DNA from: Firmicutes bacterium HGW-Firmicutes-1
Lineage (GTDB): Bacteria > Bacillota > Clostridia > Lachnospirales > Vallitaleaceae
Reading direction: 5' to 3'
DNA: 64,000 nt
Assembly (NCBI GenBank): GCA_002841625.1
Contig: PHAG01000001.1
Coordinates: 186,001 to 250,000, forward strand
Below, in pieces: positions 9,799 to 28,053 of this stretch. The first letter of the stretch is position 1; every line of letters starts with the position of its first letter. A program made the position numbers and the translations under genes. The notes beneath the pieces were generated by a model. That model had not been told where the DNA came from, ran no database searches, and saw only the letters and a list, made by a program, of their open reading frames with translations.

Positions 9799-9838
9799 TC
9801 AGGTTGTTGATAATTTATTTATCAATGAACGAAACAGA

Positions 9839-9978
9839 GATAAAAGCATTTTTTCTTCTAGATAAATACGAAAGGCAGTAAGTGTTCATTTTTCGCCTGA
9901 CCGGCCGAAGGGTAAGGCCAGAAAAATGAACACTTACTGCCAATAATGAAAACACCTATCAGAAAAAATGCTTTTATC
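9839..9978. repeat. 140-nt long inverted repeat / extended hairpin
   Basis: An 18-bp perfect outer arm (9839-9856 with 9961-9978) and a 21-bp perfect inner arm (9874-9894 with 9921-9941) are stacked, plus a 4-bp GCCT/AGGC tip (9895-9898 with 9915-9918). The tip contains the only GC-rich stretch (CCGGCC) nearby. It encodes no protein on either strand and lies between the DeoR stop and the terminator at 9774. It could be a MITE-like remnant, a structured 3' UTR or a small RNA; the sequence does not decide. Confidence 0.7.
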
Positions 9979-18543: not shown

Positions 18544-18603
18544 CATAACCTCCTTTATAAAGAGTATATCATTTTTAGGCATTTGTCAATGTTACAAAAC
18601 CTT

Positions 18604-18728
18604 CGCATTCGCTACGGTTTCGTAACCGAATGCAAGCTTCGCTTGCACATCGGTGGGGGCTTGAATCCCCTCCGATGTTGGAATTAGTTCACCCACTTCT
18701 GAAGTGGGGGAACTAATTCCATTCGGTT
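18604..18728. repeat. Cruciform/cloverleaf structured repeat, copy A
   Basis: A conserved leader CATTCGCTACGGTTTCGTAA (18606-18625) runs into a closing stem AACCGAAT (18624-18631) with ATTCGGTT (18721-18728). This encloses three hairpins: GCAAGC-TTC-GCTTGC (18632-18646), ACATCGG/CCGATGT (18647-18653 with 18672-18678, inner GGGG/CCCC) and GGAATTAGTTC/GAACTAATTCC (18680-18690 with 18710-18720, inner CCCACTTC/GAAGTGGG). The leader CATTCG could instead pair with CGAATG (18627-18632). It lies in the gap between the acetate transporter stop and the NTF2-like gene. Copy B is at 27102-27293. Confidence 0.8.
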
Positions 18729-18768
18729 AAACAAGCCTTCTTCATTTTAGTAGTGCATAGGAATTGAT

Positions 18769-19371
18769 CTATTTATTGAAAATATTAAATGGTTTTCCTA
18801 CTGGTAAGAACTTTTTATTGAAATGTGCATTCAGTACTGCCGCTGCAGAGCCATAAAATGCGATCAAAGAAATGATAAGTTCTGAATATGCTGCTAATTT
18901 ATGTCCAAAAGCTGGTGCAATATCTAAAGTACTAAGTGATAATCCTACAAATAGTAGATCAATGAATACGAAGATAAAGAATAGAACTTTATGAACCTCC
19001 ATAGCTCCTATTGTCATAAAAATACTAAAGATCAAATAACCTACAAAAGCAAATCCCAATTGTTTGATATCAGCTTGTTTGGCTAGTTTTTCTCCTAGCA
19101 CTCCTGCTTGAATAAGCCAAGTAAGTGCCACTGCAAACCAAAAAAATGCATATGCACCAAATGCAGTTGCTCCAAATACATTGTTTTTCTTAGCATCTTG
19201 AATTGATGCATAGAGCTGAGCAAAAGCTCCTAAAAATATTGCCCAAGGAATAATGAGTGCTGTTCCATCAGTTAACCCAAGTTTTTGTGAAGAAGCTACC
19301 AAAGTAACCATAGCTAGTCCAAACAATCCTAAAGCTGTTGGATCAGCAACAACAATTTTACGTTCATTCAT
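18769..19371 (-). CDS. GPR1/FUN34/YaaH family acetate/succinate transporter
   Basis: A 200-residue inner-membrane protein with six predicted hydrophobic segments. ADPTALGLFGLA near the N-terminus is the family NPAPLGL-type signature in variant form. SatP/YaaH homologues exchange acetate (and succinate) with protons. In a fermenting cell this would release or recover acetate. GGAGG lies 8 nt before the ATG. It is a single gene; the structured repeat copy A begins about 40 nt after its stop. Confidence 0.9.
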   Translation of the reverse strand: MNERKIVVADPTALGLFGLAMVTLVASSQKLGLTDGTALIIPWAIFLGAFAQLYASIQDAKKNNVFGATAFGAYAFFWFAVALTWLIQAGVLGEKLAKQADIKQLGFAFVGYLIFSIFMTIGAMEVHKVLFFIFVFIDLLFVGLSLSTLDIAPAFGHKLAAYSELIISLIAFYGSAAAVLNAHFNKKFLPVGKPFNIFNK

Positions 19372-27101: not shown

Positions 27102-27293
27102 CATTCGCTACGGTTTCGTAACCAGCTGCAAGCTTTGCTTGCACATCAGTAGTGGCTTAGCCACCACTGATTTACGGATACTCAACCTCCGCATTCGCTA
27201 CGGTTTCGTAACCAGCTGCAAGCTTTGCTTGCACATCAGTAGTGGCTTAGCCACCACTGATGCTGAAATAAGCTTCGCTTATTTCAGCTGGTT
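27102..27293. repeat. Cruciform/cloverleaf structured repeat, copy B, with a 70-bp tandem duplication
   Basis: 27102-27171 and 27192-27261 are identical over 70 bp (90-bp period). Only the second unit is complete: closing stem AACCAGC (27210-27216) with GCTGGTT (27287-27293), hairpin 1 TGCAAGC-TTT-GCTTGCA (27217-27233), hairpin 2 ATCAGT...ACTGAT (27235-27261, inner GTGGC/GCCAC) and hairpin 3 CTGAAATAAGC-TTC-GCTTATTTCAG (27263-27287). The leader is the same as in copy A (18604-18728), but the closing stem and hairpins 2 and 3 have different sequences that still pair. The right end overlaps the DeoR stop codon. Confidence 0.82.
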
Positions 27294-28053
27294 ATACCAA
27301 CTTTACATCAAATTGTTCTAATAAATATACTACCTTTGGATCTGGCATTTCATCTACGACAATGGTATCAAAATCATAGATCTCAGCAAATTTATACACA
27401 CCATCCGAATAAAATTTCTTTGATCCTATGACTAAGTAAGTCTTCTTACTAGCATTCATAATGGCACGCTTGGTGTTTCCATCCTCCACCAAAAAAGTTG
27501 TAATACTATGGTCTGCAACATCAACACCACAGCTTCCAATAAACGCTCTGTCAACTTTATATTTTGAGATATACTCGATTGTAGATGACCCAATAAATCC
27601 ACTCAACTCTTTATGTAGAACACCCCCTATACCAATCACATCAACATGAGGGCATTGGGATAAAATTTGAATTACATCGATCATATTAGATATAACCGTC
27701 ATTCTCTTTCTACCTTGAGCAATATATTCTGCTACAATTATATTTGTAGTAGCTATGTCTAAAAATATAGTCTCTCTTTCCTCTATAATATCATACACCT
27801 TTTCAGCTATTCGCTGTTTTGATTCAACATCCAAATTTTTCCTACTAACTATAGTCCTATTCAAACTAGCTTCTCTTGATAAAACAGCCCCACCATAAGT
27901 TCGTTTTATTAACCCATTTTTCTCTAGTGTTTTCAAATCCTTACGAATACAATCTTCCGTTACATCAAATTTTATACTAAGGTCTTTTACGATAATTTTT
28001 CCGTTTATATTTAATAGACTTATAATTTCTTGCAATCTTTCTTCAACAAACAA
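27292..28053 (-). CDS. DeoR family transcriptional repressor
   Basis: A 253-residue protein. HTH: KIIVKDLSIKFDVTEDCIRKDLKTLEKNGLIKRTYGGAV. Effector domain: TIFLDIATTNIIVAEYI, VIGIGGVLHKELSGFIG, DRAFIGSCGVD and YLVIGSKKFYSDGVYKFAEI. It probably controls the flanking HAD and glycyl-radical genes. Its promoter carries five tandem 10-bp repeats (28069-28118). The stop codon lies inside the closing stem of structured repeat copy B, so an insertion may have replaced the original end of the gene. Confidence 0.92.
   Translation of the reverse strand: MFVEERLQEIISLLNINGKIIVKDLSIKFDVTEDCIRKDLKTLEKNGLIKRTYGGAVLSREASLNRTIVSRKNLDVESKQRIAEKVYDIIEERETIFLDIATTNIIVAEYIAQGRKRMTVISNMIDVIQILSQCPHVDVIGIGGVLHKELSGFIGSSTIEYISKYKVDRAFIGSCGVDVADHSITTFLVEDGNTKRAIMNASKKTYLVIGSKKFYSDGVYKFAEIYDFDTIVVDEMPDPKVVYLLEQFDVKLV

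Follow-up and report, generated by a model that had tools for sequence, protein, structure and literature searches.

IS200/IS605 insertion sequences, among them IS608, ISDra2 and the IS605 elements that target TTTAA, insert 3' of a fixed short target without duplicating it, have no inverted repeats, carry subterminal hairpins, keep a fixed orientation and end in special right-end bases. HEARO RNA/IscB is a structured element of the IS200/IS605 type, copies of which may lack an ORF. Insertion into the lagging-strand template has been reported for IS608 and ISDra2 (PMC6006769), and an archaeal IS605 is described as inserting at TTTAA and ending in TTCAC on the right (PMC11043419). REP sequences with their RAYT enzymes and the IS605 hairpins of Borrelia are dispersed intergenic hairpins presumed to be moved in trans by Y1 enzymes, and the free-standing hairpins of Borrelia are described as sitting at the 3' ends of genes (PMC2775950).

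We analyzed a window of 64,000 nucleotides from Firmicutes bacterium HGW-Firmicutes-1 (contig PHAG01000001.1, positions 186,001 to 250,000), in which the original prediction had pointed out a cloverleaf-like repeat. The repeat belongs to a new element family that has no transposase, is strand-specific and works in the IS200/IS605 fashion, its way of moving being our inference. In our reading, it is probably a small non-autonomous mobile-element family that encodes no transposase and moves like IS200/IS605 sequences, in the form of a single folded DNA strand. It has the target use, lack of duplications and of inverted repeats, subterminal hairpins, fixed orientation and special right-end bases of IS200/IS605, and differs from them in containing no transposase or TnpB gene, in spanning 67-173 nt with TTTAA counted and in having no same-ended partner among the loci searched; with no same-ended Y1 transposase found, the element is at most a non-autonomous relative of that group. 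It resembles REP/RAYT sequences and the Borrelia hairpins as a dispersed intergenic hairpin repeat, but is longer, comprises several hairpins and has both a defined target and a defined right end, and the resident Y1 gene has other repeats. Unlike HEARO RNA, it has no Rfam sequence match at the gathering threshold. This account offers a testable explanation for a hairpin repeat that annotation would skip as terminators or RNA.

The leader sequence, CATTCGCTACGGTTTCGTAA, occurs at 18606, 27102 and 27192 of the window, with 0.00 chance matches expected. Two of these positions belong to the copies originally reported (hereafter copies A and B), and the remaining one marks a third, truncated copy (27102..27173, minus strand), recognized by sequence, leader match and copy alignment, which lies 90 bp from copy B and reproduces its start. 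A 90-bp direct duplication covering hairpin 1, hairpin 2 and the leader of copy B was observed at 27102-27281. The full unit is larger than first described because a leader-side hairpin is included, so that copy A spans 18585-18731 and copy B 27171-27296, both on the minus strand. From the alignment of copies and the covariance model R1, the element body of copy A (CCG...TTGAC) lies at 18585..18726, with the TTTAA target to its left at 18727..18731 and the right-end TTGAC at 18585..18589. Its 3' hairpin domain (18585..18630), which contains the leader, was delimited by a second model, R2, and by cross-genus covariation, and scores 71.3 bits with R2, the alignment of which contains copy A itself. 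The closing stem, formed by AACCGAAT (18624-18631) and ATTCGGTT (18721-18728), encloses three hairpins (18624..18728) as had been described, on the basis of sequence, folding and covariation. Hairpin 3, at the TTTAA end, was placed at 18680..18720 from the sequence, its likeness to an IS605 right-end hairpin having been scored on the long copies of the family.

Copy B (27171..27296), recognized by sequence and R1, lacks a clear TTTAA or TTGAC; it is an old copy, and the sister genome, G001, has a counterpart of it at the corresponding place. By inspection, the closing stem of copy B differs from that of the counterpart by compensating changes (AACCAGC/GCTGGTT versus AACGAGA/TCTCGTT), and its retention would be compatible with a kept role at that place. 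With R1, whose alignment includes copy A (as L003) and excludes copy B, the two copies scored 161 and 113 bits, respectively, and the sole further match in the window was the complement of copy A at 33.5 bits. Either strand of both copies folds into a closing stem enclosing three hairpins, and across both strands the folding energies were 6.4 to 9.2 SD below dinucleotide shuffles with RNA parameters and 7.5 to 9.9 SD below shuffles with DNA parameters. The placement of the copies just past the stops of minus-strand genes was also borne out: copy A starts 37 nt past the stop of the ORF at 18769-19371, and copy B touches the end of the ORF at 27292-28053. The copies in the window encode no transposase. 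A search of the whole window with Rfam at the gathering threshold gave no match, and a search of 18560-18780 at a relaxed threshold gave 21 matches, all under their gathering scores and mostly to eukaryotic microRNAs. A tRNA-like cloverleaf was ruled out, as ARAGORN detected neither tRNA nor tmRNA across the window.

Across the 3.95-Mb genome of the window (G000), the leader has 50 matches at up to 2 mismatches, compared with 1 for the reversed control, and these roughly 50 copies adjoin different genes. Lined up on the strand opposite to that originally used, the copies share common outer ends, TTTAA^CC(G)...TTGAC^. A long copy consists of TTTAA, CCGAATGG, hairpin 3, hairpin 2, hairpin 1 and the closing-stem return CATTCGGTT, followed by a hairpin of the form GGTTACGAAACC-GTAGC-GAAT-GCGGA-GGTTTTGTAAC and the end ATTGAC. 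There are no terminal inverted repeats; long forms have subterminal hairpins at both ends, hairpin 3 is absent in short forms, and the TAA of TTTAA is able to pair with a TTA beside the closing stem, which may correspond to the pairing of guide tetranucleotides with cleavage sites in IS200/IS605. Of the 50 leader copies, a script delimited 40 as full copies; copy B, the truncated ones and some others overlooked by the script are not among them. Among these 40, TTTAA is exact in 36 and TTGAC in 24, and 22 are short forms (<100 nt) that lack most of hairpins 2 and 3; many copies of the family are degraded. Several variants were also seen. An extra hairpin, ATAGTAGC...GCTACTAT, occupies the same position in both species (L037 432-604 in the window's genome, L084 1423-1600 in the sister genome, and L073), and two copies (L210 246-412 and L174) are split within a hairpin by additional sequence. 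At L010, a decayed element-like stretch of the other subfamily (...GGTCACGAGCTCGTTGC...GCGAGTATCAATTAA) lies immediately 3' of a better-preserved copy.

Sites with and without the element point to how it is inserted. The one clean empty site between the species is at L008, where the copy follows a gene ending in CATTTTTAA and the sister genome, which is 75-83% identical to the window over its longer matches, reads CATTTTTGAGAGAAATAATT; the filled and empty sites have the same length after removal of CCG...TTAAC. The sister genome appears to be the MAG HGW-Firmicutes-7, as its loci and those retrieved from a named genome collection share their flanks. At the loci of copy A and of L020, the sister genome has decayed copies instead of empty sites, the comparison was ambiguous at L011, L047 and L049, and in other pairs one flank alone aligned. 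Filled and empty forms were also found within a second dispersed repeat, which has at least 41 strong matches in the window's genome. Its empty form (L134, L136) reads GACAATTTAATTAATTATCAATTAAC, and its filled form (L045) reads GACAATTTAA[element]TTAATTGTCAATTAAC; L039 is broken at that very point, and L027, now without its left part, has an identical right junction. These filled sites may descend from a single insertion. From the empty and filled sites together, it follows that TTTAA is a pre-existing target, that nothing is duplicated and that the orientation of the element is fixed relative to TTTAA. A partly self-complementary copy of the second repeat, which has the motif GAAACAGAGATAAAAGCATTTTTTCTTC, is present in the window itself at 9799-9916; elsewhere this repeat is a landing site of the TTTAA element.

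The original prediction had expected target duplications if the repeat were a mobile element, and this expectation was not borne out: among 40 copies in which both end sequences, TTTAA and TTGAC, are exact (29 from the window's genome and the sister genome, and 11 from G032), a direct repeat of at least 6 nt around the ends was present in only 1. Its proposal of a MITE-like element or a 3' UTR RNA was supported in part: mobility is supported by the many copies, precise ends and empty sites, whereas an ordinary MITE is not, for lack of target duplications and of inverted-repeat ends. A conventional MITE, mobilized by a DDE transposase, would likewise be short, repeated and geneless, and distantly related Clostridiales-1 elements in another genome (G122) are MITEs of this kind; we nevertheless regard this identity as extremely improbable, given the near absence of target duplications, the missing terminal inverted repeats and the single constant target TTTAA (36 of the 40 full copies).

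In the mechanism that we favor, a Y1 (HUH) transposase supplied in trans would recognize the subterminal hairpins once lagging-strand synthesis has exposed them on a single strand, would cut after TTTAA and after TTGAC, and would join the excised strand behind another TTTAA. Copies would gather just past stop codons, since the stop TAA is part of TTTAA and insertions inside genes would be lost; in 7 of the 40 full copies, TTTAA in fact supplies the TAA that serves as stop codon, and the position of the element behind genes follows from this overlap. The 5' neighboring ORF is co-directional in 33 full copies, opposite in 5 and absent in 2 (33 of 38 called neighbors), and the 3' neighboring ORF is co-directional in 29, opposite in 10 and absent in 1. 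A TTTAA target combined with a strand preference can explain such co-directional placement without an RNA function. The TTTAA strand is G-rich in the flanks of 33 of the 40 full copies, a skew that is not separable from gene direction, and the plus strand of the window is C-rich in all eight 8-kb pieces, the TTTAA strand of the window copies being the minus strand. The flank skew would be in keeping with the lagging-strand template as the insertion substrate, as in IS608 and ISDra2, but is confounded with gene direction. In 38 of 40 copies, the fold of the TTTAA strand is more stable than that of the complementary strand, and the same holds in 87% of shuffles, which makes this weak evidence.

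We further analyzed covariation, which the original prediction had proposed from two copies. In 24 long copies from two species (16 from the window's genome and 8 from the sister genome), 92.2% of cells pair compared with 87.5% in shuffles, and pairing falls to 42-45% when the structure is slid by one column. Pairs changed on both sides number 15 of 51 against a shuffled mean of 10.1, double-change cells number 64 against 23.9, and for each of five covariation measures none of 500 shuffles was as high; these values are to be read with the caveat that the structure came from these same sequences and that many double changes represent one event per subfamily. The set comprises 24 of 26 delimited long copies, excluding the two with the extra hairpin (L037, L084); L074, which had been wrongly delimited, was removed earlier. 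For the 3' domain, 47 sequences from several genera, taken from 64 distinct domains after removal of near-duplicates, pair in 82.2% of cells compared with 71.1% in shuffles, with 74 double-change cells against 25.0 and none of 500 shuffles as high. Columns 10/47 show CG 24, UA 11 and AU 8 times, and columns 14/43 show AU 30, UA 10 and CG 6 times. Two of the five measures in this set were not above shuffles, namely double-change pairs (8 versus 7.3) and further pair types (21 versus 21.0).

Stem covariation in the long copies and in the 3' domain, the co-directional gene preceding 33 of 38 copies and the holding of copy B at one place in two species would also be expected of a structured RNA of 3' UTRs or operon gaps, such as an mRNA stabilizer, terminator or processing site, that is retained for its RNA function, and the IS605 hairpins at the 3' ends of Borrelia lipoprotein genes have been reported as conserved as RNA (PMC2775950). 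We consider this explanation unlikely for the family, because its members are shown to be mobile by their precise placement in TTTAA sites that existed beforehand, their number of about 50 and their presence within another repeat, and because Rfam gave no match in the window at the gathering threshold.

A search for a transposase that could move the element covered the window's genome, the sister genome and other Y1 loci that were read, and found no Y1 transposase with the ends of the element. With PF01797, the window's genome has one single-copy Y1 gene (L050, 252 aa), which was rejected as a partner because different repeats flank it. These repeats, GGGGACAGGCACTTTTGCC and AAGTGCCTGTCCCC (L050 299-2260), are the REP-like pair of this only Y1 gene, and letters similar to them adjoin locus L015. 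The two complete Y1 genes of the sister genome have no element at their flanks, the IS200-type genes of G001, G013, G032 and G081 were rejected as partners because their ends differ, and G072 and G091 carry elements and have zero PF01797 matches. The single-copy Y1 gene raises the question of whether a domesticated RAYT (TnpA-REP) transposase has spread the repeat as a sequence of REP type, and the conserved core does contain GTAG, reported as the tetranucleotide of many REPs (PMC8266576, PMC3733652). However, GTAG lies within a longer hairpin instead of at the foot of the element, and the different repeats at the resident gene, the lack of elements beside the Y1 genes of the sister genome and the genomes with elements and no PF01797 match make a RAYT origin unlikely, slightly more so than the RNA explanation.

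In G004, a genome of the same family as that of the window, an IS605 element with tnpA and tnpB (L101) starts with TTTAACC and ends with AGAAGCCCCACTTCTTAAGTGGTGGGAGTATGTCAC, both ends having been placed by eye. Its right end and hairpin 3 of the long copies align with a score of 40, compared with a best score of 26 in 630 control windows and 30 for reversed elements, and its left end scored 25 against the elements, not above control. Partial matches to the right end of L101 occurred in two plasmid records, and a likeness of the core to a codon run of the TnpB zinc finger in L101 was judged to be chance. The shared right-end layout and hairpin, together with reports that TTTAA is a TnpB target motif and that the guide in Sulfolobus follows the right-end TTCAC (PMC11043419), could suggest a solitary TnpB omega-RNA, a right-end RNA retained without tnpB. 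This is very unlikely, as PF07282 (TnpB) has no match in the window's genome, the likeness to L101 concerns a single hairpin at the opposite end of the element and no Rfam family is matched in the window at the gathering threshold.

The original prediction had proposed a covariance-model search for further copies, and besides those in its own genome, R1 detected the family of transposase-less elements in at least 8 of 96 relatives (G000, G001, G024, G027, G032, G072, G081 and G091), with per-genome counts being lower bounds. The related sets extend to other genera, and most copies in relatives start with TTTAA and end with TTGAC or a near form. G032 has at least 18 R1 matches, including 11 near-identical copies with the same ends (mean identity 93%, lowest pair 74%), and genomes with such near-identical copies make the mover of transposase-less single-strand elements testable. 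Among 391 genomes drawn from the class, a draw that may omit other known carriers, R2 with strict filters gave matches in at least 3 (G000, G032 and G122), and the two matches in G122 also have the form TTTAACC...CTTGAC. The leader at up to 2 mismatches was present in 3 of the 96 relatives, that in G048 being a lone copy with no element around it, and the exact leader occurred in a collection of genome contigs in two stretches of one MAG. Carriage by viruses was rejected, since 4 viral contigs with the exact 17-base core had no surrounding element (R1 12-15 bits) and 16 contigs with the right-end pattern of the G032 form had zero R1 matches at E up to 1. A search of plasmids and phages with the G032 form (L187) at E 1e-3 found none.

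Finally, we compared the family with Clostridiales-1 (RF01699), a curated Rfam family of unexplained function that 24 of 146 genomes from the order carry, several of them in many copies. The RF01699 model matched L163 (G091) at 30.9 bits (E 0.0007) and L187 (G032) at 21.5 bits (E 0.24, not significant alone), both below the gathering score of 48; a whole-genome search also matched G091 and G145, and the window copies gave no match to the model. A core taken from the 3' hairpin of the family, ATGAG-NNN-GTAGC-loop-GCGGA-NNN'-CGAAT with complementary NNN, was found in 13 of 27 RF01699 loci compared with 0.05 in shuffles. It is free of mismatches in 8 of the 13, two of which (L229 and L248) resemble one locus in two genomes, and also in L163 and L240; in L069 of the sister genome it has two changes, and copy A was not found at that tolerance. 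Conversely, R2 searched against 23 RF01699 loci matched L240 alone, which is itself a TTTAA element, and the link to Clostridiales-1 therefore rests on the weak RF01699 matches and the motif test. The two families share the hairpin core and, in some forms, the TGCTTGCA loop preceding it, and differ in their ends, with inverted repeats and target duplications on the Clostridiales-1 side in G122.

In that genome (L296-L310), 11 of 15 fetched Clostridiales-1 copies lie between 17-bp inverted repeats resembling GATGCCAGGGTCAAAAG and CTTTTGACCCCAACATC, one right repeat among the 11 being weak, and 4 have no recognizable right repeat. Target duplications are exact in 8 of the 11 (seven of 7 bp and one of 12), one matches in 6 of 7 positions and two copies have none. 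In G122, the Rfam 'sRNA' is thus the body of a MITE, with a chemistry other than that of the element in the window. Its source paper names the family once, in a table, in the text available (PMC2864571), and the literature searched held no account of Clostridiales-1 as a mobile element; our data indicate that this curated family has members carried on mobile DNA. One hairpin core may be carried on two mechanistically different mobile elements, the TTTAA element and a Clostridiales-1 MITE with mostly 7-bp duplications, a proposal that we regard as possible but somewhat doubtful. If it holds, the core would be a functional module rather than a stand-alone RNA gene, acting either as a tag that lets insertions be tolerated in RNA or protein, or as the handle of some mobilizing enzyme, and its presence on two types of vehicle would be the more interesting point. 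Clostridiales-1 copies of G122 and G152 show no preference in direction (5 of 18 co-directional). Single copies in other genomes, which may be retained old copies, some of them orthologous, are co-directional in 16 of 19 cases, and about half touch a stop codon.
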